Part shown: piece by piece, positions 5,534 to 54,350 of the stretch
How the letters are laid out: every line of letters starts with the position of its first letter
Position numbering within the stretch: the first letter of the stretch is position 1
NCBI RefSeq assembly: GCF_014695715.1
Contig: NZ_JACJOT010000009.1
Span: forward strand, 248,001-312,000
Direction of reading: 5' to 3'
DNA: 64,000 nucleotides
Source: Microcoleus sp. FACHB-68
GTDB taxonomy: Bacteria > Cyanobacteriota > Cyanobacteriia > Cyanobacteriales > Oscillatoriaceae
The notes under the pieces: generated by a model
The model's database searches: none
The model's input: only the letters and a program-made list of their open reading frames with translations
What the model was told of the DNA's origin: nothing
Translations under genes and position numbers: made by a program

Positions 5534-6232
5534 ATGATTCAGTTATTAGTTAATATCTTAGAAGTTACTTTGGGAACATTTTATGGAAAACGTTTTTACG
5601 CACGCTGCTTTGTGCTGGAAACAATCGCTCGTGTTCCTTACTTTGCTTATCTGTCAGTGCTTCACCTTTATGAAAGTCTCGGATTTTGGGATAAATCTGA
5701 TTGGCTGAAAATTCACTTCGCTGAAACTTGGAATGAATTGCATCACCTGCGAATTATTGAAGCGCTGGGGGGAAATGAGCGTGCCATTGACCGTTTTATC
5801 GCTCGCATAGGGGTTCTTTTTTACTACTGGGTTCTGGTTTTTATCTATATGATTTCACCCCGAGCTGCTTACTACTTTAACGAGTTAGTGGAAGAAAAAG
5901 CCCACCACACCTATGATAAGTATTTAAACGAGTGTGAGGCGGAACTTAAAAGCCAGCCGGCACCGGCAGTGGCAATTGCTTATTACCGAGATGGCGATCT
6001 CTATATGTTTGATGAGTTTCAAACGTCTCATCTGCCGGCACAGCGCCGGCCAAAAATCGAAAATCTCTATGATGTGTTTGTGGCTATCCGTAATGACGAA
6101 ATGGAACACGTTAACACGATGAAGGCTTGTCAGAGATCGGATGCGAAGGAGATTATAAATAGCCCTCATAGTGCTGAGGTTAAAGCTCAATCTCAAGAAG
6201 ATTCAGAGGTGTCCGATAAACATTTAGTTTAA
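5534..6232 (+). CDS. Plastoquinol terminal oxidase (PTOX/alternative oxidase type)
   Basis: A 232-residue di-iron oxidase that passes electrons from plastoquinol to oxygen, making water and acting as a safety valve at the thylakoid membrane. All six iron ligands of the family are present: Glu29 (LETIAR), Glu68 and His71 (NELHHL), Glu120 (LVEEKAHHTY), Glu189 and His192 (NDEMEH). PAPAVAIAYYRDGDLYMFDEFQTS and RRPKIENLYDVFVAIR match the chloroplast IMMUTANS-type branch rather than mitochondrial AOX. It has no transit peptide and is a monotopic membrane protein. A ribosome site AGGGGAG precedes ATG 5534. The tail after residue 200 is acidic and variable. It is monocistronic behind a long AT-rich leader. 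Confidence 0.93.
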   Translation: MIQLLVNILEVTLGTFYGKRFYARCFVLETIARVPYFAYLSVLHLYESLGFWDKSDWLKIHFAETWNELHHLRIIEALGGNERAIDRFIARIGVLFYYWVLVFIYMISPRAAYYFNELVEEKAHHTYDKYLNECEAELKSQPAPAVAIAYYRDGDLYMFDEFQTSHLPAQRRPKIENLYDVFVAIRNDEMEHVNTMKACQRSDAKEIINSPHSAEVKAQSQEDSEVSDKHLV

Positions 6233-12420: not shown

Positions 12421-15400
12421 TCAGGTAGACTGACCTTCTATTTCTTTAGATAGAGAAGAGAGTTTCATCCGGCGACTTTCACGAGAAATCGGTATTAAGG
12501 CTGGAGGTTTATTGATAACATTGCTATTTTGATAATTCTCAATTAATTTTGAAAATTCTGCAATGGTTGGCGCTTCAAATACACTACGCAAAGGCAATTC
12601 TATTTCCAAGGCATCGCGCACTCTGGAAATTAGCTGCGTTGCTAATAAAGAATGACCCCCTAATTCAAAGAAATTATCGTGAGTACCTAAGCGTTTGAGT
12701 CCCAGAATTTCAGCCCAAATTTTTACCAGCATTTCCTCAACCGGCGTGCGAGGTGCGACATAAGATCCAGACAGTTCTGGTTTCATCGGTTCAGGTGCCG
12801 GCAGTGCACGGCGATCTACTTTTCCATTAGGTGTGATCGGCAGGTACTCTAACACGACAAATGCTGAGGGAACCATGTATTCAGGCAATTTTTCGGTTAA
12901 ATAACTCTGTAATTGGGGTACTAATTTACGCGCAGCTTTTGCTTGCAGAGGATTGTTTGCATAAGAATGCAAATTACCCTTCTTTGCCATAAAACCGGCA
13001 TCCTTTGTCCTTCCTTGGCTACTAAGAGGAATTCTTTGATTGTTTATAGCTTCTTTTCGGACAAAAATCGCGTCATAGCACCCATTACCGCCGGCATCTG
13101 ACCAGGTAATATTAAGCGTATAGGATAATTCCTCACTCATCCCATACAAATCTTCTGGTTCAACTCCAGAATCTTGAAATTCTTGCAAAGCTTTCTGCAA
13201 TTGACTCGCTGTTTTAAATTTTCCGCTTTCTGACAGCCATTCTGCGGTTTTAACGGCTGCCACGACTCGCGCATTCGGTATTCTATTAATGCCTATTGCT
13301 TCGGGTTTAGTGGCAGTTAATAACTGGTGAATTGTAGAGAGTGTCAAATTATCTTCAATCCAGTCTAGACACTTTACTTCATCGCTAGTTCTGTTAATCG
13401 TTGATTTTTTTGCCTTAATATGGAGTATGACATTATAACGAAACTGCGTTAATTCATTATGATGCCGGCCTCGTACTAGCTGAATCTCTACGTCGCTAAT
13501 TTCTGGCAAATGTTGCTTTAATGCACTAAAGAAACCTGGATCGATGACTAACTCTGTTTCTTGGAAAACTTGCATTTGCACTCGTTGCTGCAAGTGTTCG
13601 CAGGGAAGAGAAGGTTCTGCTTGATAAAGTTGTACCGAGGCGTGAAAAGCTTCCAGTAAGGGAAGGCTACGCACATCTCCGATGAAGATAAGTCCACCCG
13701 GTGCAGTTGCTTGCACTGCGCCTTTTAAAACTTGCGCTAAATAGTCAATATTGGGAAAATATTGCACAACTGAATTGAGAATGACTGTATCAAATGCTTC
13801 GGCTTCAATTCCCTCAAAATCCGTTGCTATTTTCTGAAGTAGCGTTACTTGGGGCATTTCTTGCTTTGCCACTTGCTGCTGAATATAGTGGAGTGCCGGC
13901 GCAGAGAAATCTGTTCCGCAATATTGTGTGCAATGCGGCGCAACTCTAAACAAAACTAAACCTGTACCGCAACCAATTTCTAATACTCGTTTCGGTTGCA
14001 AAGCGAGAATTTGTGCGACTTGATTATTTACCCACTCCCGTACCTGTTCTGCTGGGATCGGTTGGTCAGTGTAACTGCTATTCCATCCAATAATATTGAA
14101 GGTTGGATCTGCCTCGGCTGCCGGTTGTTTATAAGTCTCGTCGTAAAGCATTTGCCACTGCAAAACCTGTTCATCTTGCAATTGCACCGGCTGTATAGAT
14201 GCCGGCTGTTCCTTGCCTTCAGAATTCAGTGTAAGATAAGCAACTAAACGTTTTTCGCCGGCAGCGTCCTCTCGCTCAACTGCCACGGTTTGCAATACGG
14301 CTGGATGCTGATTTAATACTGACTCAATTTCTCCTAATTCAATGCGAAAACCGCGAATCTTTATTTGATCATCACTTCGCCCTAAAAATTCAAGGTTTCC
14401 ATCACCTCGATAGCGAACTAAATCACCCGTTTTATAAAGTCTTGATCCCTTTTTATCACTAAAAGGATTCGGAATAAATCTCTCAGCGGTTAAATCAGGT
14501 CGGTTAAAATATCCTCGCGCTAATCCATCACCACTAATATATAATTCCCCAGAAACTCCAATAGCTGCCGGCTGTAAATTCGCATCCAGAACGTAAAGTT
14601 GAGTATTGGCAATCGGACGACCAATAGGCGGCGCTACATCTGGGTGATTTTTAACAGTAATCTGACCGGAAGTTGTAACCACGGTATTCTCAGCCGGCCC
14701 GTAATTATTCACCACCTGAAAAGGATATGAGTTTAAAGGATACTCATGAAGTTTATCGCCGCCGGTGAGTAATAATCTTAATTCAGTATTTGTCGGCCAT
14801 TCTATTTGCAAAACCTTCTCTGCTAAAGGCGTTGGTAAAAAGCTAATCGTAATCGCTTTTAAAACTAACCAATCTCGCAATTTTTCCGGCGATAGACGAG
14901 TTTCATCTTCTGGGAAATAAATACTCGCGCCGGCAGTTAAATACGGCCAAATTTCCCACACGCAAGCATCAAACGCAACACCGGCAATTTGTGTCACTCG
15001 ATCAAGCGGTGAAACGCCAAAGGCTTGCTGATGCCAAAAGACGAGATTTAATAAGCTGCTGTGTTGAATTTGAACGCCTTTTGGCTTGCCGGTTGAGCCA
15101 GAAGTGTAAATCACATAAGCCAGGTTGCCGGCGGTGACGTTGCTAATAAGATTGTCTTCACTTTCTTGGGCAATTTTCTCCCAATCTTGATCCAAGCAAA
15201 TGACACGGGATAACTCTATAGATGCAAACTTTTCTTTTTCTACCCAATCAGAAGAAGTCAAGACCACCGGCACTTGAGCATCCTTGAGGATAAAATTCAA
15301 CCGATCAGAAGGATAAGTGGGATCTAAAGGCAGATAAGCCGCACCGGCTTTGAGAATGCCTAATATTCCCACCACCATTTCTATCGATCGCTCAACGCAA

Positions 15401-17190
15401 ATTCCAATTAAATCTTCGGCTCCAAAACCCTGTTTTTTCAAGTAATGTGCTAATTGGTTGCTGAGTGTGTTGAGCTGCCGGTAAGTGAGTTGTTTATCTT
15501 CCAAAACAAGCGCAATAGCATCCGGTGTGCGTTCTACTTGCGCTTCAAATAACTGCTGCACGCACAAATTTTTAGGATAATCTGTTTCAGTCTTATTCCA
15601 CTCCACTAATAGCTGATGTAACTCAGATTCACTTAAAATTGGTAAATCGGCTATTTTCTGTTCGGGCTTAGCAACGATGCCTTCTAAAAGTGTCTGAAAA
15701 TGCCCTAACATCCGTTCGATTGTCGCGTGATCGAATAAATCGGTACTGTACACAACTAACCCGCTGATTCCTTCTGAGGGATTCACCCACAAATCATTAC
15801 CGGCAGATTGTTGCCACAGATGAAACTCTAAATCAAACCGAGTTGTGCCGCTATCAAATTGCTGCGGACTTAATATTAATCCAGGCAGTTCTAATGCTTC
15901 TACAGGTGCGTTTTGCAACGCAAAAACTACTTGAAATAAGGGATTTTGGTTCAAATTGCGCTCTGGATGCAACTCCTCTACCAGCTTCTCAAAAGGCAAG
16001 TCTTGATGGGCATAAGCTCCTAGGGCAACCTCTCGAACTCGGCTCAACAATTCCCGAAAGGTTGGGTTTCCCGAAAGGTCAGCACGCAGCACTAAACTAT
16101 TAACAAAAAAACCAATTAACGGTTCTATATCACTGCGGTTACGATTAGCAATGGGTGAACCGATTGCAATATCTTCAGTGCCGGTGTAGCGGTAGAGCAA
16201 AGTCTGAAATGCCGCTAGCAAAGTCATGAATAAAGTTGCCCCTTCCTGCTGACTCAAGGCTTCTAGCGCTTCACTCAAAGGCTTGGGTAAGCTAAGGGTT
16301 TGCGTTGCACCTCGATAAGTTTGAATAGCAGGTCTTGGTCTGTCTGCCGGCAAATTTAATATAGAAATATCGGCTAATTGTTTCTGCCAATAAGTTAACT
16401 GAGTTTCTAACACTTTCCCTGGCAACCATTCACGCTGCCAGAGAGCAAAATCTGCATATTGAATGGGTAGCGCCGGCAGCGGAGAAGGCTTGCCGGTGAC
16501 AAACGCAGCATAAAGCGCCCCCACTTCCCGAATTAACACGCCAATTGACCAACCATCGGAGACAATATGGTGTAGATTCAACAATAAAACGTGTTCTGTC
16601 TCATCAAATTGCAACAATTTCACGCGCAGCAAAGGGCCATTTGTCAGATTAAAAGGACAGTGAGCTTCCTCAGTGGCAATGCGACGCGCTTCGGTTTCCC
16701 GTTTCTGTGCCGGCACTTCTCGCAAATTTATAACAGGTATCGATACCGTTAAAATGGGTGCGATTTTTTGCACCGGCTGCCCATCTACTAACTGAAATGT
16801 AGTGCGTAAAGCTTCATGCCGGCGTACAATTTCGTTAAAAGTTTGCTGTAGCGCTGTTAAATTTAGCGTGCCGGTTAATCGAAATGCCGTGGGAACATTA
16901 TAGAAAGCACTCCCCGGAACCAATTGGTCAAGAAACCACAACCGTTGCTGAGCAAAAGAAAGTGGAAAAGTTTTGTCATCCCCTCTAGAGACAGGGCTTA
17001 TAGAAGTCGCATTTATATTAATATTAGCTTGACGTAAAAATAAAATAATTTCTGCTTTGCGTTCAGCTAGCTGTGCCCGAATTTCTGGCGTTAGAGTTCC
17101 TTCCGGAGCATTACAGCGCAAACGATCTCCATCCACAAAAACCTGAATATCCAAGCTCCGAAGCTCTGATAGAAACTCAACAATATTCAA
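12421..17190 (-). CDS. Non-ribosomal peptide synthetase: TubC dock-C-A-MT-PCP (predicted N-methyl-Leu)
   Basis: A 1589-residue synthetase subunit. Residues 1-55 (MNIVEFLSELRSLDIQVFVD) are a TubC-type N-terminal docking domain. The condensation domain, about 74-500, has HHIVSDG at 207-213. The adenylation domain has YTSGSTGKPKG near 695-705, and its ten specificity positions (Asp741, Ala742, Trp745, Phe784, Leu808, Gly810, Asn829, Val837, Val838, Lys1457) spell DAWFLGNVVK, a published leucine code in cyanobacterial synthetases. A SAM methyltransferase (VLEIGCGTG near 1069, NSVVQYFP near 1139) is inserted before motif A10. The carrier domain has LGGHSLL with Ser1514. There is no thioesterase. 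The start is TTG 17190 after AGAGG. The tail PISRESRRMKL resembles a module linker, so a partner or release enzyme may be elsewhere. Confidence 0.93.
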   Translation of the reverse strand: MNIVEFLSELRSLDIQVFVDGDRLRCNAPEGTLTPEIRAQLAERKAEIILFLRQANININATSISPVSRGDDKTFPLSFAQQRLWFLDQLVPGSAFYNVPTAFRLTGTLNLTALQQTFNEIVRRHEALRTTFQLVDGQPVQKIAPILTVSIPVINLREVPAQKRETEARRIATEEAHCPFNLTNGPLLRVKLLQFDETEHVLLLNLHHIVSDGWSIGVLIREVGALYAAFVTGKPSPLPALPIQYADFALWQREWLPGKVLETQLTYWQKQLADISILNLPADRPRPAIQTYRGATQTLSLPKPLSEALEALSQQEGATLFMTLLAAFQTLLYRYTGTEDIAIGSPIANRNRSDIEPLIGFFVNSLVLRADLSGNPTFRELLSRVREVALGAYAHQDLPFEKLVEELHPERNLNQNPLFQVVFALQNAPVEALELPGLILSPQQFDSGTTRFDLEFHLWQQSAGNDLWVNPSEGISGLVVYSTDLFDHATIERMLGHFQTLLEGIVAKPEQKIADLPILSESELHQLLVEWNKTETDYPKNLCVQQLFEAQVERTPDAIALVLEDKQLTYRQLNTLSNQLAHYLKKQGFGAEDLIGICVERSIEMVVGILGILKAGAAYLPLDPTYPSDRLNFILKDAQVPVVLTSSDWVEKEKFASIELSRVICLDQDWEKIAQESEDNLISNVTAGNLAYVIYTSGSTGKPKGVQIQHSSLLNLVFWHQQAFGVSPLDRVTQIAGVAFDACVWEIWPYLTAGASIYFPEDETRLSPEKLRDWLVLKAITISFLPTPLAEKVLQIEWPTNTELRLLLTGGDKLHEYPLNSYPFQVVNNYGPAENTVVTTSGQITVKNHPDVAPPIGRPIANTQLYVLDANLQPAAIGVSGELYISGDGLARGYFNRPDLTAERFIPNPFSDKKGSRLYKTGDLVRYRGDGNLEFLGRSDDQIKIRGFRIELGEIESVLNQHPAVLQTVAVEREDAAGEKRLVAYLTLNSEGKEQPASIQPVQLQDEQVLQWQMLYDETYKQPAAEADPTFNIIGWNSSYTDQPIPAEQVREWVNNQVAQILALQPKRVLEIGCGTGLVLFRVAPHCTQYCGTDFSAPALHYIQQQVAKQEMPQVTLLQKIATDFEGIEAEAFDTVILNSVVQYFPNIDYLAQVLKGAVQATAPGGLIFIGDVRSLPLLEAFHASVQLYQAEPSLPCEHLQQRVQMQVFQETELVIDPGFFSALKQHLPEISDVEIQLVRGRHHNELTQFRYNVILHIKAKKSTINRTSDEVKCLDWIEDNLTLSTIHQLLTATKPEAIGINRIPNARVVAAVKTAEWLSESGKFKTASQLQKALQEFQDSGVEPEDLYGMSEELSYTLNITWSDAGGNGCYDAIFVRKEAINNQRIPLSSQGRTKDAGFMAKKGNLHSYANNPLQAKAARKLVPQLQSYLTEKLPEYMVPSAFVVLEYLPITPNGKVDRRALPAPEPMKPELSGSYVAPRTPVEEMLVKIWAEILGLKRLGTHDNFFELGGHSLLATQLISRVRDALEIELPLRSVFEAPTIAEFSKLIENYQNSNVINKPPALIPISRESRRMKLSSLSKEIEGQST

Positions 17191-17323
17191 AATTACACCT
17201 CTGTTAGCCTATTCGTAAAAGCCATCGCTCATATCCTAACCTACTCCAAAAAAAGAGATAAGTCATCTGTGGTTAAAAAAACACCCTCCAATTTTACAGT
17301 TTCATGCCCAAACACAATTACCC

Positions 17324-17956
17324 TTAAACACTCATTGCCAATTGACCCAAACCCTTCAACACACTCAGAACATTATACAAATCATTCCCAGGATTGAAAA
17401 TGTCCAATATCTTAGACAAAGCGTACTGTGGAGCCGGCCCTTTGACTAATTTAATAAATCGAAAACTTGCACCATTTGTGATCAGCCCAAAGGTAGATTT
17501 ATCCGAGTTAGGATTTGCCTGCATATAACCAAGTAACTGCGCTCTCCCTGTATCCAGAGAGAAAGCTGCTTGCGTGGACTCGATGACCAGAATCCAAATC
17601 TGTTCAAATAGAGTTAATACATCCATCTGTCCTTTGTAGATAATTCCTTCATCTTCAAGAGAAATCTCCACAGACTTTTCTGACGTGATATGAAAGGGAG
17701 GTAGATAGAAGCCGGCTAAATCCAATAGCGGAGAGAGTACCACCATTTTGACAGTATTTTCCAGCAGCGGAGGGTACTTTAGCAAATTTGAATAACTTGC
17801 CTTAACTCGGTCAAGTTGTTGCTTTTCTAACTCGCTAATTTCTGGCAAGTTATCTTGCCACTCCCGGAAAAATTGGTCATTCTCAACGAGCTGCAGTCCA
17901 AATTTTGTTTCTAAATCATGCAGGGTAATATTTTTGATTGCAATTGTTTGAACCAT
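17324..17956 (-). CDS. Orphan type I restriction R-subunit-like (PD-(D/E)XK fold) protein, catalytic Lys missing
   Basis: A 210-residue soluble protein resembling the stand-alone 'restriction endonuclease subunit R' proteins of cyanobacteria. Nuclease-fold marks are Glu67 with VVLSPLLDLAGF, Asp112 in GQMDVLTL, the ExK strand WILVIEST (126-128), and Gln140 with LLGYM. In the family the strand ends ExK. Here position 128 is Thr (ACG), one change from Lys (AAG), so cleavage activity is doubtful. No helicase, methylase or specificity subunit lies nearby. It lies between the two synthetase genes in the same orientation, probably without a functional link. Confidence 0.65.
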   Translation of the reverse strand: MVQTIAIKNITLHDLETKFGLQLVENDQFFREWQDNLPEISELEKQQLDRVKASYSNLLKYPPLLENTVKMVVLSPLLDLAGFYLPPFHITSEKSVEISLEDEGIIYKGQMDVLTLFEQIWILVIESTQAAFSLDTGRAQLLGYMQANPNSDKSTFGLITNGASFRFIKLVKGPAPQYALSKILDIFNPGNDLYNVLSVLKGLGQLAMSV

Positions 17957-18129
17957 AACTTTTGTGGGTAAAGGTGGGGAAACAGGAATTGAGAAAAGAA
18001 GATAACCGCTGCCTCATCCTTTAGAAAGACTTGTGGCGGCTAACACTTGCTATTGATTTAACTGTGATCTAATCTCATTATGACGTTGAAAGACAACGCT
18101 GTGAACATCCTATCGTAAGGTTTAAGCTC

Positions 18130-19239
18130 ATGATATTTATGCCTCTCAATATCCCGTTAATATGGCTAGTTGGACTACTGTCCACCGGCATACTTGGCGG
18201 TGGGATCTACATTCTCTATGAGTGGTATGAAGGTGAACTTGAGGGAATGTCCTACTTATTGGGCGGACTAGCGATGGTTTTGTGGTCTTTTGGCGGTCGT
18301 TTTATCAGTTTGCCACTGTTGCGCCGGCCTGGAAATGATGAACCCAAGCGAATGCGTTCTGAGACTGTAAAACGTGTGCCGCGACCCGATGGTAGTGTGC
18401 TTCAAGTAGAGTTTTATGGCCCTGAAGATGGTCAACCAATTATCCTGTCACATGGTTGGGGTCCTAACAGTAACGTGTGGTACTATGCCAAGCGACAATT
18501 GAGCAAACACTTCCGAGTCATTGTTTGGGATATGCCGGGTTTAGGAAAATCAACTAGACCGAACAACAAGGACTATTCGGTAGAAAAATTTGCTAGAGAT
18601 TTGGAAGCTGTTCTTGCCATTGCAGGGGATAAGCCGGCGATTTTACTTGGACACAGCATGGGTGGCATGGTTGCCTTAACATTTTGCCGGCTGTTTCCTG
18701 AACTGTTGGGAAAAAGAGTTGCCGGTTTAATTTTGGTTGATACTACTTACACCAATCCCGTTAAAACTTCTATTTTGAGCCGGTTGTTACGCAAATTGCA
18801 AAAGCCAGTTTTAGAACCGTTGCTCTACCTTGCTATTTTGATCTCGCCCATTTTTTGGTTGATGACTTGGCTGAGTTATCTCAACGGTTCGCTTTATATT
18901 AGTGTAGAAATATCTGGGTTCACCGGCACTGAAACACGCGGCCAACTCGATTTTTCTGCCCTATTATCTGCCTTCGCTTCGCCCGCTGTTCTCGCTCGTG
19001 GTACGTTGGGAATGTTCAACTACGATGAAAGCCAAACGCTGCCAACCGTTAACGTGCCGGTGTTGCTTATTTGCGGCGCATCAGATATCGCTACGACTCC
19101 TCCAGCCAGCGTCCGCATGAATGCGGAATTACCTCAATCCGAACTCGTCATTTTAAAGCCGGCTGGACACATGAGTTTGATGGAGCAAAATGCTCAGTTT
19201 TCTGAAGCGGTTAGCACCTTTTGCCAGACGCGCTTGTAA
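18130..19239 (+). CDS. Membrane-anchored alpha/beta hydrolase
   Basis: A 369-residue protein with two N-terminal hydrophobic segments (about 8-30 and 40-58), then an alpha/beta hydrolase domain. Seen are the oxyanion-hole region LSHGWGPNSNVWY, the nucleophile elbow GHSMGGM (Ser about 178), CGASDIATTP for the acid and AGHMSL for the catalytic His. A hydrophobic cap segment near 235-255 may sit on the membrane. ATG 18130 follows AAGG. It runs against the synthetase gene with only 8 nt between the stop codons. It could be a lipase/esterase, or a hydrolase acting on the peptide product; the second is only a guess from position. Confidence 0.8.
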   Translation: MIFMPLNIPLIWLVGLLSTGILGGGIYILYEWYEGELEGMSYLLGGLAMVLWSFGGRFISLPLLRRPGNDEPKRMRSETVKRVPRPDGSVLQVEFYGPEDGQPIILSHGWGPNSNVWYYAKRQLSKHFRVIVWDMPGLGKSTRPNNKDYSVEKFARDLEAVLAIAGDKPAILLGHSMGGMVALTFCRLFPELLGKRVAGLILVDTTYTNPVKTSILSRLLRKLQKPVLEPLLYLAILISPIFWLMTWLSYLNGSLYISVEISGFTGTETRGQLDFSALLSAFASPAVLARGTLGMFNYDESQTLPTVNVPVLLICGASDIATTPPASVRMNAELPQSELVILKPAGHMSLMEQNAQFSEAVSTFCQTRL

Positions 19240-19247
19240 CTCATGTT

Positions 19248-22200
19248 TTAAAATTCGATTTCTTCTCGCTCGTTTATCGCAGATTGGGTGGTATCTAAAC
19301 CTTTTGCCGCCCAACAAATTGTTTCAATATATTTAGCAAGATGCGCCACAGTTGGTGCTTCAAATAGGTTGCGTAACGGCAATTCTACCCCAAAAGAGTC
19401 ACGCACGCGGGAGACTAACTGGGTTGCGAGTAGAGAATGACCTCCTAATTCAAAGAAATTGTCGTGAATACTTACTTGTTTTAATCCCAAAATTTCAGCC
19501 CAAATGCCGGCTAACACTTCTTCAGCAGCAGTGCTAGGTGCAACATAATTTTCGTTTATGTTTTGAACGATATCTATCACCGGCAGCCGACGACGATCTA
19601 TTTTGCCGTTGGGTGTGAGGGGTAAAGACTCCAGCACCACAAAAGCTGAAGGCACCATATATTCTGGCAACTTTTCTGCTAAAAATTGACGCAAAGTTGA
19701 GAGGAGGGATGAGGGATGAGAAATGAAAGATGAGTTAGAAGGAACAATGTAAGCCACGATGCGCTTATTAGCAGAGATATCTTCAATCGCAATTACAACT
19801 GTTTGTTGAATTGCTGGATGTTGACTGAGGATTGCTTCAATTTCTCCCAATTCAACGCGAAAACCGCGAATTTTTACTTGTTCATCAATCCGACCTAAGA
19901 ATTCAATATTTCCGTCAGGCAAATAACGCGCTAAATCACCAGTTTTATAAAGCCGGCTTGAAGCATTAAGCGATGATTTCCCTCTCTCTCCCTCTTCAAA
20001 AAAAGGGTTCGGAATAAATCGATCAGCCGTTAAATCTGGCCGGTTGAGATAGCCTCGTGCTAATCTTTCACCACTGATATACAGTTCGCCGGCAATACCG
20101 ATGGGTGCCGGTTGTAGTTGTTGATCTAGCAGATAAATTTGTGTATCCGTAACAGGGCGACCGATGGGAATAGATGTAGTAGATTCTGGAATATCTTGGA
20201 CGCAGTAAAAAGATGAAAATGTTGTATTTTCTGTTGGGCCGTAAAGATGAATTAGTTGTTCGGGCGCACCTTTTTTTAGCACCTCTTGCACCCACTTCGG
20301 ATCGGCACTTTCACCGCCAAAGAGCAAATATCTTAACTTATTGAAGGCTTGCGGAATCACGCTTGCCATCTGATTCACTAAAGCGGTGGTTAAAAACAAA
20401 ACGCTGATGTTATCGGTTCGCAGTTGGGCTGTAAAATCTTCAGGTGAAAGGATAACATTTCTGTTAATGATAACAAGCTGAGCGCCGTGAAGTAATGCAC
20501 CCCAAATCTCAAAAGCTGCGGCATCAAAGGAAGTATTGGAGACTTGAGCAATTTTATCTGCCGGTTCTATCTTGATATAATTTGGGTTTAAAAACGTCCT
20601 GACAACAGCTTTGTGAGGAATTGCCACTCCCTTCGGTTTTCCTGTAGAACCAGAGGTGTAGATGACATAAGCTAAATTTTCTTCGTTTGTACTGTTCTTA
20701 AGATTTTTCTCGCTTTCTCGGTTAATCACCTCCTCATCTTTATCTAAGCAAACAACTTTTGTTTTTCCATAATCAATATCTAATAATGAATGAGTGATTA
20801 CCAAGGATACTTGAGCATCTTCTAACATAAAGCTCAAGCGTTCACGAGGATAACTGGGATCTAAAGGCAGATAAGCCCCACCGGCTTTCAAAATTCCCAG
20901 CATTGCCACGATGAGGCCGGCAGAAGGTTCTAGACAGATGCCGGTGACAACTTCTGAACCAACGCCCAATTTTTTCAAGTAGTGGGCTAGTTTGTTGCTG
21001 CGAATGTTTAATTCACGGTAGGTGAGTTTTTCTTCTTCAAAACTGAGGGCTATTTTATCTAGATTTTGCTCAACTTGTGCTTCAAACAATTGAGGAATAG
21101 TTCCCTTTATTTTAGAGGTAAAATTATGAACACTTAGAAAATTCGAGTTGAACTCTACCAAAATTTGATGTTGTTCTACTTCGCTCAAAATTGATAAATC
21201 ACCAATACGCTGTTCTGGATTAGCAATAATTTTTTTTAACAGGATTTTAAAATGCTCCAACATTCGGGTAATGGTTGCGTGATCAAATAAATCAGTGTTA
21301 TATACTACTATGCCCCTAAATCCTTCAGAATTTTGCCACTGCTCCCCATAAATGCTTCTAAAATCTGATGAGGATTTCCACAGATGCAGTTCTAAATCAA
21401 ATCGCGTTGTTTGCGTTTCTATATTAACCGAACTTACCGCTAATTCGGGTAATTGTAGTCCCTCCATCGGAGAATTTTGGAGAGCAAACACGACTTGAAA
21501 GAGGGGATGCCGGCTCAAATTCCGCTCTGGCTGTAGTTCCTCAACTAGCTTTTCAAAAGGCAAATCTTGGTGGGCATAAGCTCCTAGCGTTACCTCTCGC
21601 ACTCTGGCTAGTAATTCTCGAAATGTGGGATTTCCAGATAAATCAGTCCGCAACACCAAAGTATTGATAAAAAAACCAATGAGTTTTTCAATTTCGCTGC
21701 GATTGCGATTAGCGATGGGTGAACCAATGGCAATATCTTCTTGGTATGTGTGGCGGTAAATTAGCGTCTGAAATGCTGCTAGCAAAGTCATAAATAGGGT
21801 GACTTCTTCGCGCTGTGAAAGCTTCTCTAGTGCCTCACTCAGCTCTTGTGAAATCTCCAAATATTGAGTAGAGCCTCGGTAAGTTTGGGTAGCAGGTCTC
21901 GGTCGATCAACCGGCAGGTTTAATACCTCAATCCCGGCTAATTGCTGCCGCCAGTAAGCCAACTGGGTTTCTAACACCTCTCCTTGCAACCATTCGCGCT
22001 GCCATTCTGCAAAGTCGGCATACTGAAGCGGTAACGCCGGCATCAATGCAGGCCGGTTTTCAGCAAAGGCTGTGTAAAATATCCCTAATTCCCGAATCAG
22101 CACACCGATAGACCAATCATCGGCAACAATATGGTGCATATTCAGTAATAAAATATGTTCGCTCTCGTCTAGCCGCAGCAGTGTCACTCGCAATAATGGC

Positions 22201-22607
22201 CCTTGAGACAGATTGAAAGGACGCTCACATTCTGCTTTAATTAATCGCTTTGCTTCCGCCTCTCGTTCTGTTGCCGGCAACTGTTGCAAATCTAACACCG
22301 GCACAGATACGCTCAAACTCGGTGCAATTGCTTGAAAAGGTTGCCCTTCTACGATCACAAATGCCGTGCGTAAGACTTCATGCCGGCGCACAATTTCGTT
22401 CAATGTCCGCTCTAAAGCCGTTAAATTTAGCGTGCCGGTTAAGCGAATCACGGTCGGCACATTATAGGCAGCAGTGCCGGGAATTAACTGGTCAAAGAAC
22501 CAAAGTCGCTGCTGCGCGAAAGAGGCTGGAAAAATAAAAACTTCCTCTTCAGGAAGATTGACTTTTGTTTCTACATCTGTATTAGAATTTTTAGAAATAT
22601 CCGGCAT
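19248..22607 (-). CDS. Non-ribosomal peptide synthetase: C-A-PCP (predicted branched aliphatic residue)
   Basis: A 1119-residue single-module subunit. The condensation domain, about 27-460, starts at FPASFAQQRLWF. Its active-site motif reads HHIVADD (158-164) where HHxxxDG is usual, so the final Gly is Asp. The adenylation domain, about 505-1010, has YTSGSTGKPKG. The specificity positions (Asp695, Ala696, Phe699, Phe738, Leu762, Gly764, Leu788, Thr796, Phe797, Lys1002) give DAFFLGLTFK, closest in pattern to Ile/Val-type codes. The carrier has LGGHSLL with Ser1058. The C-terminus ends in acidic EREEIEF, suited to dock the TubC domain of the synthetase at 12421. Two low-complexity inserts (about 870-884 and 957-970) carry repeat-like DNA. 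No starter module or thioesterase is seen. Confidence 0.92.
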   Translation of the reverse strand: MPDISKNSNTDVETKVNLPEEEVFIFPASFAQQRLWFFDQLIPGTAAYNVPTVIRLTGTLNLTALERTLNEIVRRHEVLRTAFVIVEGQPFQAIAPSLSVSVPVLDLQQLPATEREAEAKRLIKAECERPFNLSQGPLLRVTLLRLDESEHILLLNMHHIVADDWSIGVLIRELGIFYTAFAENRPALMPALPLQYADFAEWQREWLQGEVLETQLAYWRQQLAGIEVLNLPVDRPRPATQTYRGSTQYLEISQELSEALEKLSQREEVTLFMTLLAAFQTLIYRHTYQEDIAIGSPIANRNRSEIEKLIGFFINTLVLRTDLSGNPTFRELLARVREVTLGAYAHQDLPFEKLVEELQPERNLSRHPLFQVVFALQNSPMEGLQLPELAVSSVNIETQTTRFDLELHLWKSSSDFRSIYGEQWQNSEGFRGIVVYNTDLFDHATITRMLEHFKILLKKIIANPEQRIGDLSILSEVEQHQILVEFNSNFLSVHNFTSKIKGTIPQLFEAQVEQNLDKIALSFEEEKLTYRELNIRSNKLAHYLKKLGVGSEVVTGICLEPSAGLIVAMLGILKAGGAYLPLDPSYPRERLSFMLEDAQVSLVITHSLLDIDYGKTKVVCLDKDEEVINRESEKNLKNSTNEENLAYVIYTSGSTGKPKGVAIPHKAVVRTFLNPNYIKIEPADKIAQVSNTSFDAAAFEIWGALLHGAQLVIINRNVILSPEDFTAQLRTDNISVLFLTTALVNQMASVIPQAFNKLRYLLFGGESADPKWVQEVLKKGAPEQLIHLYGPTENTTFSSFYCVQDIPESTTSIPIGRPVTDTQIYLLDQQLQPAPIGIAGELYISGERLARGYLNRPDLTADRFIPNPFFEEGERGKSSLNASSRLYKTGDLARYLPDGNIEFLGRIDEQVKIRGFRVELGEIEAILSQHPAIQQTVVIAIEDISANKRIVAYIVPSNSSFISHPSSLLSTLRQFLAEKLPEYMVPSAFVVLESLPLTPNGKIDRRRLPVIDIVQNINENYVAPSTAAEEVLAGIWAEILGLKQVSIHDNFFELGGHSLLATQLVSRVRDSFGVELPLRNLFEAPTVAHLAKYIETICWAAKGLDTTQSAINEREEIEF
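19698..19737. repeat. Heptamer-like tandem repeat inside the synthetase gene
   Basis: Plus-strand sequence is built from variants of GGGATGAG/AGATGAG (tcatccc on the coding strand), typical of cyanobacterial short tandem repeats. It is read in frame as the Ser/His/Pro-rich insert FISHPSSLLS between adenylation motifs A8 and A10. Confidence 0.6.
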
Positions 22608-22643
22608 TATTTTTATTTCGTTTCACTGCTTTTCTTGTCAAAA

Positions 22644-22672
22644 ATTGTAGTGGTATAACCATAATTTTTCAA
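22644..22672 (-). promoter_or_regulatory. Sigma70-type promoter of the synthetase locus
   Basis: On the minus strand: -35 TTGAAA (22667-22672), exactly 17 nt spacer, -10 TACAAT (22644-22649). Transcription would start about 30 nt before ATG 22607. Confidence 0.6.
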
Positions 22673-23043
22673 ACCAATTATATTTAAATTCTCAAACAAG
22701 TGAAACAACGCCAAGCACAGCAGTTGAGACAATTTAATGCAAAAGGCGGTCAGTGAATTGCACTAACCGCCAATGACAGAATATTCAAAGCCGAGTGATC
22801 TGCATTTGGTCTGGCGTCAGGCCGGCAAAATGTCCTTCCCACGCAAGATTGATTTTTTGGGTTGAGGGAGTGGGAGATAAGCGTTACTTTGAAAAGAAAT
22901 TTCTCTCGCCGGCATTTGTCGTAACTCTGCTTTGCCGGCACTGCAGTCTATGCTCTATATGAACTACCCTAAAATTACCCGGATTAATTTCTCTCCCCAT
23001 CCATGCCTCAATTCCCATTAAAAATCATCAGCGAAACTTGATA
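22673..23043. other. Intergenic region, no gene recognised
   Basis: It holds a hairpin with ggcggtcagtg/cactaaccgcc arms (22745-22771) without a T tract, and several GCCGGC sites. A 63-codon minus-strand frame here has no support. Confidence 0.35.
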
Positions 23044-23532
23044 TTAGTGCGGTTTCTTGCTCAAAGCGTGCCAAGTGCGAGAACCTACAATGCCATCAGC
23101 AATTAAACCACTGTACTTTTGGAAAGCGCGTACAGCTTCTTCAGTTTTCGGCCCAAAGTTACCGTCAAGGTTTCCACCATAAAAACCGGCAATTTGAAGA
23201 ACCCGTTGCACTGTGAGAACTGACTGACCTAGGCTGCCTCTTTGCAACACCAGCATATTGACAGGCGCACCGCTATAAAGCGCTTGCCAAGTCACCTCCC
23301 CAACGATGCCATCTTCTTTCAGGAAAACACGGTGCTGGAAAGCTTTTACTGCTGTTTCCACCGGCAGATCGAAAATTCCATCTAGGGTATCCGTATAAAT
23401 TTCCCAATGTCCTAAGAGTTTTTGTAATTCTACGACTGCTGTTCCTTTAGAACCGCGCTGAAGAACCGGCTTGGTAGTTTTAGCTTGAGTTGTAGCGGTA
23501 GAGGTTGCTTTCGGATTAATTGGAGTTTGCAT
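23044..23532 (-). CDS. Peptidoglycan-binding protein with two PG_binding_1 domains
   Basis: A 162-residue protein with a Thr/Lys/Ala-rich N-terminal stretch and two helical peptidoglycan-binding repeats: about 25-85 (LQRGSKGTAVVELQKLLG through DGIVGEVTWQAL) and about 95-155 (LQRGSLGQSVLTVQRVLQ through DGIVGSRTWHAL). Such domains hold proteins to the cell wall. There is no catalytic domain and no clear signal peptide, so how it would reach the periplasm is unclear. ATG 23532 is chosen; a TTG at 23541 adds three residues. Neither has a strong ribosome site. Confidence 0.85.
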   Translation of the reverse strand: MQTPINPKATSTATTQAKTTKPVLQRGSKGTAVVELQKLLGHWEIYTDTLDGIFDLPVETAVKAFQHRVFLKEDGIVGEVTWQALYSGAPVNMLVLQRGSLGQSVLTVQRVLQIAGFYGGNLDGNFGPKTEEAVRAFQKYSGLIADGIVGSRTWHALSKKPH

Positions 23533-36238: not shown

Positions 36239-36335
36239 AAGAAGCGCTAACCAATGAGACAATGAATTATCTCGCCGGTGCGATTAACACCGCGAGATTC
36301 AAACCAACGTCATCTGTTTCAATCTCACGTTGATC

Positions 36336-36826
36336 ATGTCTCATTTTGTTACAGTTCCCCCCGGACTTGCAGGTTTAATGACGGCAGCCGGTTGTATAGA
36401 ATGGCAAGGTAATAAGCTGAGAAACGGTTACGGGCGCAAATGGATTAATGGCAAATCGGTATTCGTTCACCGATTAGTTCTCGAATCTAAAATCCCAGGA
36501 TTCTTAGAATCGGGTTATTTAGCTTGCCACGCTTGGGATAACCAAAGCTGTATTAACCTAGACCATTTAGTACCGGGAACCGCCGCTGAAAATAGCCGGC
36601 AAATGATCCAGCGAGACCGCAAAACCTCTCGCAGTCAAATTATTGCCGGTAGCAGCAAATTGAGTATTGGCCAACTTCGAGAAATTGATCTCAAATATTC
36701 CAACAGGTTCAAGCTGTGCGGAGTCGCCGAATGAATGGCTGCATTCCCGATATTGCTCGCGATTTTGGAGTGTCTAGAAGTGTCATTTACGACATTAAAA
36801 ACGGAGTCACCTATAAAGAAGTTTAA
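36336..36826 (+). pseudogene. Frameshifted HNH (homing-type) endonuclease gene between rpoB and rpoC1
   Basis: From ATG 36336 the frame encodes an HNH nuclease: GCIEWQGNKLRNGYGRKW, VHRLVLESK, CHAWDNQSCINLDHLVPGTAAENSRQM, then KLSIGQLREIDLKYS. It then stops at 36732. The helix-turn-helix that normally follows continues in another frame: NGCIPDIARDFGVSRSVIYD and KNGVTYKEV, ending at TAA 36824-36826. A frameshift between about 36695 and 36735 therefore splits the gene. The HNH part (His, Asn, His in WDN-LDH) is complete and might still be expressed as a 132-residue protein. Such free-standing endonucleases come from phages and introns. Confidence 0.75.
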
Positions 36827-43160: not shown

Positions 43161-44693
43161 CTAGAGAATGGCGCTTGCAAGATCCGTTGGTTTAAAACTT
43201 ATCTGCATCTCAATAATAAACTGGGTTCCCTGCTCTGGCGTAGAAATACAATGCAATTGAGCGCCATGTTTTTCTAACAAAATTTTTCGGCTAATTGACA
43301 ACCCCATGCCTGTCCCTTTTCCAATCGGCTTGGTTGTAAAGAAGGGGGTAAAAAGTTTAGCGCGAACTTCCTCAGTCATGCCAATGCCATTATCAGCAAT
43401 TGTGATGCGAATGCGTGAGCCGGCAGCTATCCCGTCAGACAAATTATGCGAGATGACTTCAGTGCGAATCAAAATCAGGGGTTGAAAAATTTGATTCTTC
43501 TCTTGGTTTACCCGTTCTTCTAAGGCATCTATAGCATTGGCGATCAAGTTCATAAACACCTGATTAAGCTGGCCGGCATAACAAGACACCAGCGGCAAGG
43601 CACCATAGTCTTTGATGACGTTAATAGCCGGACGATCTGACTTAGCTTTAAGCCGGTGTTGCAATATCATCAAGGTGCTATTAATACCTTCGTGGATATC
43701 GACCGTCTTGCTTTCAGTTTCATCCAAGCGCGAAAAATTTCGCAGAGACTGCACAATATTGCAGATCCGTTCGATCCCTAACTGCATAGAAGAAAGCAGT
43801 TTAGGTAAATCATCTATAACAAATGGCAAGTCTGCATCTTCCATCTCATGGAGAATTTCTGGTTCGGGTTGCGGATAATGCCGGTGGTAGAGATTCAACA
43901 GATGGATGAGTTCCTTACTATAATCATTGGCGTGGGCGAGATTGCCGTAAATAAAGTTCAACGGATTGTTAATTTCATGCGCTACACCGGCAATGAGTTG
44001 ACCCAAACTAGACATTTTTTCACTTTGCACAAGCTGAAGTTGCGCTTCTTGCAGCTCTTTTAAAGAATGCTCTAAGGCAATCGTTTTTTCGCGTTCTTTT
44101 TCCTGGCTGCTTCGCAGTGCTATTTCTACTTGCTCACGTCGCTCTATTTCAGACTGTAACTTTTGACTCAAAGAAAAACTTCTTAACGCAGTCAACACGG
44201 TCGTATATAGCTTTGATGTCGTTAATTCAGTCTTGGTTTTATAGTCGTTGATATCATAGTTAATAATTATGTTTTTTTCAGGTACTTGTCCCGGTTGACC
44301 TGTGCGTAAAATAATTCGCACTAATTGATTATTAAGGACTTCCCGGATATATTGAACCAACTCTAAGCCCGCATCATCAGTTTCCATAATGACATCAAGC
44401 AGAATAATGGCAACATCCGGATGTTCTTGAAGTAATTGTTTAGCTTCCCGAGCGGAGTAAGCACTAATAAAATTCAAATGCTTGCTTTCAAAAGCAAACT
44501 TTTTCAATGCAATGGTCGTAGCCGTGTGAACTTGAATTTCATCATCTATAATTAAAACTTTCCAACTTTCTTTTGGTTGTTTTTCCTCCTCTTCATCTGC
44601 AAAAAATAATTCATAATTTGATTCGTCTTCAAAAGTTAATAAATCTTGATCAGGAGATTGTTTAATTATAAAATTGCCAGTTACGTTTGCCAT
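43161..44693 (-). CDS. Receiver-histidine kinase signalling protein
   Basis: A 510-residue soluble protein. The acidic N-terminus is followed by a receiver domain (about 44-165) with Asp50, Asp51, phosphoacceptor Asp100 (ILLDVIM) and the NDYKTKTEL Lys region. A coiled coil follows (about 175-225). The histidine kinase has H box GVAHEINNPLNF with His239, N box QVFMNLIANAIDAL, and ATP-lid motifs DNGIGM and GKGTGMGLS. Having the receiver first, it probably receives phosphate from another kinase and then signals onward. It starts 26 nt after the giant kinase gene, with GGGAG before ATG 44693, so the two form an operon and probably one pathway. Confidence 0.93.
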   Translation of the reverse strand: MANVTGNFIIKQSPDQDLLTFEDESNYELFFADEEEEKQPKESWKVLIIDDEIQVHTATTIALKKFAFESKHLNFISAYSAREAKQLLQEHPDVAIILLDVIMETDDAGLELVQYIREVLNNQLVRIILRTGQPGQVPEKNIIINYDINDYKTKTELTTSKLYTTVLTALRSFSLSQKLQSEIERREQVEIALRSSQEKEREKTIALEHSLKELQEAQLQLVQSEKMSSLGQLIAGVAHEINNPLNFIYGNLAHANDYSKELIHLLNLYHRHYPQPEPEILHEMEDADLPFVIDDLPKLLSSMQLGIERICNIVQSLRNFSRLDETESKTVDIHEGINSTLMILQHRLKAKSDRPAINVIKDYGALPLVSCYAGQLNQVFMNLIANAIDALEERVNQEKNQIFQPLILIRTEVISHNLSDGIAAGSRIRITIADNGIGMTEEVRAKLFTPFFTTKPIGKGTGMGLSISRKILLEKHGAQLHCISTPEQGTQFIIEMQISFKPTDLASAIL

Positions 44694-44719: not shown

Positions 44720-47700
44720 TCACTTTGAGTAACCAAACGCTTCTTTTGGATCTATCTGCATGGGCAACTTAATCACAAATTGCGTGCCTTTACCCACCTC
44801 ACTTTGACACTCAATTTCACCTTTAAGTTTTTGTGTCACTAAATTGTAAACAAGATGTAATCCCAATCCGCTCCCTCCTTGAGAGCGTTTAGTTGTAAAG
44901 AATGGCTCATAAACTTTGCTTAAATTTTCAGCAGGAATCCCTTGACCATCGTCAGAGTATTTTAGGATTAAGTGCTCGTCTTCTTGCTGAAAATGAATCT
45001 GAATTTTGCCCTCACTATCTCCTTTATACGCATGAGTCAAAGAGTTGATCAGCAAGTTAGTCACGATTTGCGAAAACGCACCTGGATAAGAATCTAGACT
45101 AATATTAGTGTCACCTAAAACCTCTATCAGATGTTTGGTATGTCGCAATTTTGGCTTTAATTGCAACAAAATTTCATCTAGATAATCTTTGACATGAAAA
45201 ATTCGCCGTTCTTCGCTTGACTGATCGACTGCCACCTGTTTGAAACTTTGAATCAATGCCGCCGCCCGCTGTAAATTAATCAGCAGGGTGTTGCTACTTT
45301 GGATCGCTATATCCAAGAATTCTTCTAGCTCAGAGCGCTTCATTTTGCCGCTCTTATAAATAGAACAGAATTCTGTGGTATGTTCTGCCAAAGCTGAAGC
45401 AACGGTGACTCCTACGCCAACAGGTGTATTAATTTCATGGGCAACGCCGGCGACTAATCCTCCTAGCGAGGCCATTTTTTCCGCTTCCACCAGTTTACTT
45501 TGAGCCGCTTTTAAGTTATCTAGGGCATCCGATAATTCTTGAGTGCGATCGCCAACTAATTGCTCTAAGTTTTGATTAAACTCCTGTAAGTTTTTGTACA
45601 GTTGGGCATTTTCAATGGAAATTGCAATTTGGGCAGATAAGAGTTTTAACAACTCTAACCTATTGGTGGTGAAAGCCCCTTCTGTCAGGTTATTCTCTAG
45701 GTAAAGAATGCCGGTGAGCTTGCCTTGGTGCAGTAGAGGCGTGCAGAGAATTGATTTCGGTTGAGTCGCAACCACATAAGGATCGCGAGTAAATTGTCCC
45801 TCTTGAGTCGCGTTATTTAAAACAACGTTTTCCTGGGTACGGATGACATAGTTGGCGATCGCACCGACAAGTTTAGAAGTGTTCCCAGAAGCCGCTGTTG
45901 CATTGAGAGGAAGTGATCGCAGCACACTTACCTCCTCTTCTTTAACCGAACCTTCCGCCTCGATAACCCAGCTTCCAGCTTTTTGCAAAATCAAAAAGCC
46001 TTTTTCAGCTCCAGCATTTTCGATGGCAATTTTCATCAACCGTGTTAGCAACTTGCTCAAAACAATTTCACCTGAAATTGCTTGTGCTGCTTTCATTACT
46101 GTTGTCAAATCTAGTGTAGCTTCTAAGTTAGTAGTAGTGGTCGTAGGCTGAGCAGTTGTTTGAGTAACTTTTGTTTTATTCGCACTTTGGTTTGAAGTCC
46201 TCATGATTAATTGGGGATATTTCTTTTCTAAATTCTCTACTTTGCGTTTAGCCCCCCAAAGTTGATACCCATAGTGAGCCTTGGTGAGGTAGAGTTGGGC
46301 AAACTCCTCTTTGCCTTTCACTAACCAGAATTTAGCTGCGAGTTCTGCCCCCAGGGCTTCATTCTGAGTAAAATTGTGTTCTCTAGCTGAAGCAATCGCC
46401 CGATCATACATATCCATTGCTTCTAAATCTTGGCCTGAAATTCGGGCGATCTCTGCCGCCACCAGCCAAAATTTGTGTGCAAAATTTTCTGGGCAGTTAT
46501 CTGCCCAAGTTTTCATTTGTTTCTGATTTGCTTCTAGTTGCTTTAAGTAATCTTTTTGCTCCGATTCAGAGCCGGCTGAAAAGAGAGCTGTTAAGATAAG
46601 CGAACGATAAAAATTATGGTGAGCGCTTGAAATGTGCCCCATTAGATAATCAATGATTTCCGACGCTTGCTCAGAGGCTTGCTTTGCCTCAATGTACTGT
46701 TCATCAAGATAAAAAATCTGCGCTTTTAAAACATAAAACTCGCAGAGAGCGGCCATGCTCTTCCGGTTGTTAAAATTTTCTAAATACTGTTCTTCACTAA
46801 CTTCATCTTGTAAATCCATCAAATTTAAAATGGCTAATTTATTGGCATTAATGATATCAATTGACCACAAATTTTGGGTTTGATGACAGAAATGAAGCGA
46901 GTTAGAAATATCTTCCAATAAGCTGTTTAAATTTATTCCTTGGAAGAAATAAGTAATGGTTTGAAACATTCTGTTGTAGCCCGTCCATTGCAAATTGCCA
47001 GATTGCAAGCCAATTTTATACCCTTCGTTATTAATCTCGGCAGTCGTTTTGATTGGTTTAATCCAGCAGTTTAAGTAATTGGCAAAGATAACGCTATCTT
47101 GGCAGTTTTGCGACAGGTTATTTGAATTTTCGCTGAGGGTGAGAGCGAGCCGGCCAAACTCATAAGCCGAGTGGTAATCTCCTAAAATTGAATTCAGAAT
47201 AATTCCATAACATGAGTAGCAGTAAGACCCTCCCGCTACAAATCCATATTTTAGAGAAATGTTAATGGCTTTGATCACAGTCAGTTTCCATAGTTCTTGA
47301 GACGAAAAAAATGTCAATGGACCCATGTTGCCTAATAGCTTCAAGGCCATCTTTTTTGACGGATCTTTCATCTTTTCGGCATTAATTAATGAAGAAATTT
47401 CTCTACTTTCTAAATTAGCCTTAGCTTCAGCAAGTTCGGCATTTACCGCCCCTGCTAAGTTGTCTTCAGCTAAGTCTATTTCTAGCAAACGAAGTGCTTG
47501 TAACCCCGTTTGAATTGCTTCTTCATATTTAGTCAGTAAGGTGTACTGTACGATCAGAATGTTGTAAACTTCGGCTTTTTCTAGATTTGATTTGGACTGA
47601 GCCAAAGCAACTTCGATTAAAATCTTAGAATCTGCAAAATTTCCGTTTAAATACTCCACATCGGCCAGTTCCTTGTGCAAGGTAAAAGCCAGTTCGTAGT

Positions 47701-54340: not shown

Positions 54341-54350
54341 AGAATTTAAC

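Follow-up and report, generated by a model that had tools for sequence, protein, structure and literature searches.

We analysed a window of 64,000 nucleotides from Microcoleus sp. FACHB-68 (contig NZ_JACJOT010000009.1; G000:C9:248001-312000 in our numbering), whose genome measures 6.5 Mb. On its minus strand the window encodes two nonribosomal peptide synthetase (NRPS) proteins, named here NRPS1 and NRPS2. Could such a pair make a peptide by itself? The initial annotation took it for a compact two-protein system yielding a dipeptide. We consider it probable that the two proteins are modules 1 and 2 of a three-protein line that is found across many cyanobacterial families and is completed by NRPS3, which is encoded elsewhere in the same genome. 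Since this third protein, with condensation (C), adenylation (A), peptidyl carrier protein (PCP) and thioesterase (TE) domains, completes the pair, the predicted core is a tripeptide, and the likely product, as read from the sequences, would be a small tripeptide of the form (cap?)-Ile/Val-N-methyl-Leu-aromatic.

Both open frames had been placed correctly, and their domain content was borne out by Pfam and by translation. The scores are far beyond chance: Condensation 2e-117, AMP-binding 6e-83 and PP-binding 6e-20 for NRPS1 (P0002), and TubC_N 7e-23, Condensation 3e-116, AMP-binding 2e-80, Methyltransf_12 8e-17 and PP-binding 1e-17 for NRPS2 (P0001). As had been claimed, a methyltransferase dependent on S-adenosylmethionine (SAM) is inserted in the downstream protein; read from the translation, it lies between A8 and A9/A10, the layout of an N-methylating A domain, and neither protein has a Pfam match to a thioesterase. 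The claim that both begin with a C domain holds for NRPS1, but NRPS2 has a TubC_N docking domain ahead of it. Three features of the interval had been passed over, namely an alpha/beta hydrolase gene, the gene of P0004 and the motif HHIVADDWS in the first C domain, where HHxxxDGWS is expected. The features of the interval are as follows.

19248..22607, minus strand: NRPS1, C-A-PCP, 1119 residues, predicted Ile/Val module (translation, Pfam, code extraction)
21159..22532, minus strand: first C domain of NRPS1 (Pfam)
22110..22136, minus strand: its active-site motif HHIVADDWS, residues 158-166, that is, HHxxxDD in place of HHxxxDG, the altered residue being Asp164
19602..21086, minus strand: A domain of NRPS1, code DAFFLGLTFK (Pfam, motif anchors)
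19326..19517, minus strand: PCP of NRPS1, GGHSLL (Pfam, motif)
19251..19268, minus strand: acidic C-terminal tail of NRPS1, REEIEF, putatively docking to a presumed partner, the TubC_N domain of NRPS2
18130..19239, plus strand: alpha/beta hydrolase P0003, with two N-terminal hydrophobic segments (by eye), a candidate pathway partner by co-occurrence
17324..17956, minus strand: P0004, 210 residues, with no Pfam family above the cut-off
12421..17190, minus strand: NRPS2, TubC_N-C-A(N-methyltransferase)-PCP, 1589 residues, predicted N-methyl-Leu module (translation, Pfam)
17029..17184, minus strand: TubC_N docking domain of NRPS2 (Pfam)
15607..16974, minus strand: C domain of NRPS2, HHIVSDGWS (Pfam, motif)
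14212..15549, minus strand: A domain of NRPS2, the part preceding the methyltransferase insertion; code DAWFLGNVVK, whose last Lys lies beyond the insertion
13624..13992, minus strand: inserted N-methyltransferase of NRPS2, SAM-binding core, VLEIGCGTG (Pfam, motif)
12541..12729, minus strand: PCP of NRPS2 (Pfam)
12451..12486, minus strand: C-terminal tail of NRPS2, SRESRRMKLSSL, putatively docking to NRPS3 as the presumed partner

The initial annotation expected a release step from elsewhere, and the same genome does supply one outside the window. Among its 20 matches to the Condensation family, those besides the pair are located on contigs C8, C15 and C6, and the last of these carries NRPS3 (G000:C6:914687-918844; L110:6685-10845), a C-A-PCP-TE protein by Pfam with the code DAFTIAAVWK and the motif GWSFGG in its TE domain. 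Thus C, A and PCP are present in every module of the three proteins. In each of the two other genomes of the genus NRPS3 has an open frame of about 90% identity that keeps the code and the TE motif, and all three genes are open and 90-92% identical across the three genus genomes, the catalytic motifs examined being intact.

The three genes were then followed in 243 genomes drawn from the order, each at least 95% complete. NRPS1 orthologs were defined by at least 58% identity over at least 960 residues (our own selection, with NRPS3-type rows excluded). The searches scored two to three candidates per genome, so the ortholog lists are lower bounds; for example, NRPS1 of G009 is missing from the list yet present in the fetched locus. 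At least 33 of the 243 genomes have an NRPS1 ortholog, 32 of them with a clear NRPS3, and the 33rd (G201) has a truncated NRPS3 beside NRPS2. Among the matches listed, all 38 genomes with a clear NRPS3 also carry NRPS1 and NRPS2, with interrupted frames in G053 and G229. The identity matrices of the three proteins across 38 genomes correlate with r of 0.94-0.96, to which shared species history contributes.

In many relatives the three genes are linked. In G051 they lie back to back as NRPS1-2-3, with a 4-bp overlap and then a 3-bp gap, and nine further genomes (G004, G231, G081, G139, G150, G171, G183, G174 and G154) keep this order on one strand, where NRPS1 and NRPS2 overlap by at least 4 bases and NRPS3 overlaps or follows within 200 bp (longest-frame starts). 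Extra genes lie between them in G045, G039, G027, G038, G009 and others, NRPS3 is upstream of NRPS1 in G212, G178, G229 and G091, and the three genes and the hydrolase fall within about 16 kb in a record that corresponds to the complete Microcoleus vaginatus HSN003 genome. Elsewhere they are dispersed. In G000 NRPS3 does not share a contig with the pair, and at least 267 kb separate them (the nearer contig end is 48.8 kb away on C6 and 218.7 kb away on C9); separate contigs are also found in G001, G002, G018, G021, G032 and G083, and in G165 the distance is 1.1 Mb on the same contig. A two-protein form, whose second protein has a TE-like end, occurs in the relatives G024, G103, G119, G123 and G132 (methyltransferase and TE confirmed in G024, the only one of them run against Pfam) and is absent from the three genomes of the window's genus.

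Two accessory genes were observed near these loci. A glycine-zipper/apolipoprotein-like gene adjoins NRPS3 on C6 (L110:11405-13048, plus strand) and has homologs in the NRPS loci of G001, G002, G027, G032, G038, G053, G108, G146 and G178; in G038 and G027 it lies inside the linked cluster, which suggests that the window arrangement derives from the break-up of such a cluster. A phosphopantetheinyl transferase gene adjoins NRPS1 in G038 (L114:2331-3083, plus strand), with homologs in the G108, G146 and G201 loci, and the window genome has another on C8 (L179:4766-5506).

The specificity codes were extracted by motif anchors from 40 (A1), 43 (A2) and 41 (A3) rows, and the two codes read initially, DAFFLGLTFK and DAWFLGNVVK, were recovered. 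A1 reads DAFFLGVTFK in 35 of the 40 rows and DAFFLGLTFK in 3, all of the window genus (G000-G002), besides two single variants. According to excerpts of the sources, which is how all PMC records are cited here, DAFFLGVTFK loads Ile/Val in OciB/OciC of cyanopeptolin (PMC2533009) and Ile in aeruginosin-type lines (PMC13122637), so that the Ile/Val-like assignment of the first code, one residue off, stands. The second code, DAWFLGNVVK, is found in 32 of 43 rows (one DAWFLGNVIK, six DAF[I/L]IGAIWK and four truncated rows make up the others); its initial assignment to Leu agrees with its description as the commonest Leu code (PMC12283262), and it is also present in predicted Leu domains of the scytocyclamide synthetase (PMC7524897). 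A3 reads DAFTIAAVWK in 34 of 41 rows. This exact code was not found in the literature searched; by similarity to DAWTIAGVCK, the code at the N-methyl-Phe position of OciB (PMC2533009), the domain is probably aromatic-specific. Therefore, the order and specificities of the proposed Ile/Val-N-methyl-Leu core are retained, while the core itself was incomplete, a third residue being predicted. As a separate observation, family f18 (L126, L167, L172-L174) differs in the code of its second A domain, which reads DAFIIGAIWK in the rows shown, and three of its NRPS2/NRPS3 pairs branch away from the rest in the tree, which together suggests recombination.

The pathway would then run as follows. NRPS1 would activate and load Ile/Val, and its C domain would most likely attach to Ile a small starter unit that is provided in trans; such an N-cap would also prevent loss of the N-methylated dipeptidyl thioester as a diketopiperazine. 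Through its REEVEF-like tail NRPS1 may dock to the TubC_N domain of NRPS2, which is predicted to activate and N-methylate Leu and to extend the chain. A tail like SRESRRMKLSSL is present in most NRPS2 orthologs, and this SRRMKLSSL-like segment may hand the chain to NRPS3, which would add the third, probably aromatic residue before its TE released the chain. By calculation, a core of Ile-N-methyl-Leu-Phe would have an [M+H]+ of 406.27, to which the mass of any cap would be added. The hydrolase P0003 may act on the donor, an intermediate or the product. With the order set by protein docking, the genes could lie apart.

An unusual feature is the first C domain. HHxxxD[D/E] is found in all 40 NRPS1 rows (those longer than 900 residues), whereas HHxxxDG, the motif of canonical elongation C domains (LCL type), is found in all 43 NRPS2 and 41 NRPS3 rows; the two His residues, including the catalytic one, His159 in NRPS1 of the window, and the Asp are invariant in the 40 rows. 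In a FastTree analysis of 92 C domains, which contained no labelled starter reference, the NRPS1 domains group with the G011 ortholog in a single clade (support 0.95) within the clade of NRPS2 and NRPS3 domains (0.98), sister to most NRPS3 domains, and D[D/E]WS domains from other lines are scattered. By this placement, the NRPS1 domain is read as descended from elongation C domains within the same pathway, and its motif as convergent. It also retains the C2- and C4-type motifs RHExLRTxF and QYxDF. Its nearest solved sequences are Txo2, Txo1, 5u89 and TycC, and 7c1k/7c1h, which we take to be structures of starter C domains, rank with the weakest matches listed. On the motifs and the tree we reject a starter C domain, which would show a separate clade and unconserved C2/C4; on the absence of EHHXXHDG, in place of which NRPS1 reads NMHHIVADDWS, and again on the tree, we reject a ureido-forming one. 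In FscG, HHxxxDE is catalytically competent, and the acidic residue contacts the amine of a Gly acceptor, being helpful rather than essential (PMC8097023); a small acceptor does not explain the residue here, because the acceptor code of NRPS1 is Ile/Val. Relaxed decay is likewise unsupported despite a conservation lower than that of the NRPS2 domain: mean pairwise identity is 66%, close to the 65% of the A domain in the same protein (703 pairs, 38 genomes). The C domain comes first in the line, and no donor was recognised near the fetched clusters. The reading that we consider most likely is an active initiating C domain with its starter supplied in trans.

Nor is the motif unique to the family. 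A scan limited to HHI patterns found 75 sites in 67 of the 243 genomes, one of them the G240 remnant and 24 outside the family. Twenty of the 25 non-family or remnant sites were fetched (one each in G023, G072, G104 and G210, and one of two in G173, were left out), and 19 were read by eye after exclusion of the G240 remnant (L211). Thirteen of these 19 follow an A-PCP or FAAL-ACP (fatty acyl-AMP ligase and acyl carrier protein) start unit: in 11 an A-PCP starts the protein or lies in the preceding one (L199, L200, L203-L206, L209, L210, L212, L215, L216), and in two, by sequence, a FAAL-ACP precedes (L202, L217). One site follows a polyketide synthase protein (L207) and five are located elsewhere (L201, L208, L213, L214, L218). 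It should be noted that classes assigned by regular expression differ from these, placing for example L201 and L208 after a loading A-T (adenylation-thiolation), that L200 is cut by the contig start, that a further NRPS gene lies a few kb upstream of L205/L206, and that L205/L206, L215/L216 and L201/L208 are orthologous pairs, which leaves fewer independent cases. Tallies over the whole set of fetched loci carry the bias of how these were picked and were set aside. In an unbiased check of 119 HHIxxDxWS sites in 10 genomes, five had D/E, all of them in NRPS1. We tentatively offer, as a conjecture more apt to fail than to hold, that HHxxxD[D/E] marks C domains repeatedly re-specialised for the first condensation, in which the donor is a single starter unit and not a peptide under extension; here a duplicated elongation domain would cap Ile with a small donor in trans, in a dispersed, docking-held synthetase, and a membrane hydrolase would later trim or transfer the cap.

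As for the hydrolase, an ortholog (threshold E 1e-90; weakest accepted 7e-148) is present in 27 of the 243 genomes, that is, in 27 of 50 family carriers and none of the 193 others (hypergeometric 2e-22, which ignores shared ancestry). The carriers were scored by ourselves, G060 and G135 from search rows only. The gene adjoins NRPS genes in 18 of the 43 genomes fetched around NRPS matches and is unlinked, on another contig or at least tens of kb away, in 9 of the 27 (G009, G027, G038, G053, G115, G132, G143, G165, G183). That it is kept even when unlinked argues for a functional tie rather than mere position, and P0003 is a likely pathway partner. Its solved relatives include esterases, an epoxide hydrolase, haloperoxidase-like enzymes and others, a range that does not fix its reaction.

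Several observations weigh against the three-protein pathway as set out. NRPS3 is unlinked in the window genome, so its partnership with the pair rests on relatives. G146 and G011 have NRPS1-type genes with no NRPS3 among the matches listed; NRPS1 is interrupted or truncated in G053, G146 and G229, and NRPS2 in G032, G229 and G011; NRPS3 is truncated in G201, and G240 has a remnant. Such broken copies indicate that some lineages have undergone decay, unless they are assembly errors. The A3 code resembles a Phe code without matching it, and at E 1e-90 no hydrolase ortholog is present in 23 of the 50 family genomes. Conservation of the first C domain is below that of the NRPS2 domain (72%; the first is higher in 20 of 703 pairs) and, in most pairs, below that of the NRPS3 domain (68%; higher in 227 of 703). 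Finally, we recognised no gene that could supply a cap in the vicinity of the fetched NRPS operons or clusters.

Some of these points feed other explanations. It is conceivable, though we doubt it, that the first C domain survives as a relic without use and that the line starts directly with Ile on the NRPS1 PCP, giving an uncapped tripeptide and perhaps a diketopiperazine by-product. The lack of a recognised donor gene next to the trimodular operons, a domain not of starter type (with 7c1k/7c1h matched weakly), its lower conservation than the NRPS2 domain and the Gly of HHxxxDG, listed as catalytically important in VibH (PMC1894796), would all suit a relic, but the HH...D is invariant in 40 of 40 rows, the domain is as conserved as its own A domain, FscG works with HHxxxDE (PMC8097023), and the replaced residue is always acidic, which is not random. 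That the window genome uses the pair alone, with release by the neighbouring hydrolase, or spontaneously, giving a dipeptide or diketopiperazine and NRPS3 serving another line, seems unlikely: the distance of NRPS3, the hydrolase adjoining the pair and the two-protein, TE-ending version in relatives are in keeping with it, but NRPS3 is conserved in both other genus genomes, the three genes co-occur, the C-terminal tail of NRPS2 is the same as in linked orthologs, and genomes with an adjacent NRPS3 have the hydrolase as well (G004, G174, G228).

We regard as very improbable an iterative use, in which NRPS2 returns chains to NRPS1 and repeated Ile-N-methyl-Leu units form before release. An EVFVFPASF-like N-terminal segment is common to most NRPS1 and NRPS3 orthologs, and the C domains of NRPS1 and most NRPS3 are sisters in the tree; common descent accounts for this similarity, however, another NRPS in the same genome starts in a similar way (GEVFVLPTSF), and the D/E change argues for a different donor. 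There is likewise only a slight chance that the locus is a decaying remnant without product. The initial annotation had named fragmentary copies in related strains as a sign against its proposal; interrupted or truncated copies do occur in some relatives, but in the window's genus the three genes are open and conserved with intact catalytic motifs, as described above. We therefore retain the three-protein line as the probable reading.

Within the interval, the hydrolase gene on the plus strand is convergent with NRPS1, and P0004 lies on the minus strand directly upstream of NRPS2, as it also sits between NRPS1 and NRPS2 in G001, G002, G038 and G108; from this arrangement, NRPS1 and NRPS2 are probably separate transcription units. 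A promoter scan of 17000-23100 found no promoter- or terminator-like sites above shuffles. The flanking genes are ordinary, with an SRPBCC-type gene and an alcohol dehydrogenase (the latter by sequence) on one side, and PG-binding, response regulator, GGCT, UDG-like, hisD and rpoB genes on the other. Elsewhere in the window we observed an alternative oxidase (AOX) homolog (5534-6232, plus strand), a 134-residue HNH-like frame between rpoB and the next long downstream frame (36330-36734, plus strand; HNH_3 only below the Pfam cut-off), a 1777-residue protein kinase-AAA-GAF-histidine kinase hybrid (44720-50053, minus strand) followed by a separate histidine kinase (43161-44693, minus strand), and a CHAT-domain protein adjoining an SLH-domain protein in overlapping open frames (52484-56144, minus strand).

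Cyanopeptolin lines have an N-methylated residue and TE release, as is predicted for the line proposed here. The present system shares an identical or near-identical Ile code, DAFFLGVTFK, with collinear lines of the cyanopeptolin and aeruginosin types (PMC2533009, PMC13122637), but has three modules, one per protein, a modified C domain first and, in some genomes, scattered genes. Starter (lipoinitiating) C domains are said to have lost the C2- and C4-type motifs (Rausch et al. 2007, PMC1894796); the NRPS1 domain keeps these and groups with the elongation domains of its own pathway. The C3 domain of FscG is similar in that an acidic residue replaces Gly with His and Asp kept, but it is internal with a Gly acceptor (PMC8097023), whereas that of NRPS1 is first with a predicted Ile/Val acceptor. 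Ureido-forming C domains are also specialised domains near the start of a line, but carry the motif missing here (PMC11212132). At the level of titles and abstract openings, the literature searched names no known product or same gene set. In one survey, 286 families were distinguished among 452 cyanobacterial NRPS/PKS clusters, a large number of these families being orphan (PMC4247773), and the present family may be among them.

The system is a widespread variant of a familiar machine, its genes are scattered in places, and one active site carries an unusual change that is conserved. Cluster tools that read locally would probably call the pair a truncated dipeptide synthetase, and the assignment of the hydrolase to the pathway is not always reachable from position alone. 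HHxxxD[D/E] is an active-site signature whose value as a marker of initiating condensation domains can be tested, and the family would represent a widespread orphan tripeptide pathway whose genes are dispersed in some lineages, yet retained as a set.

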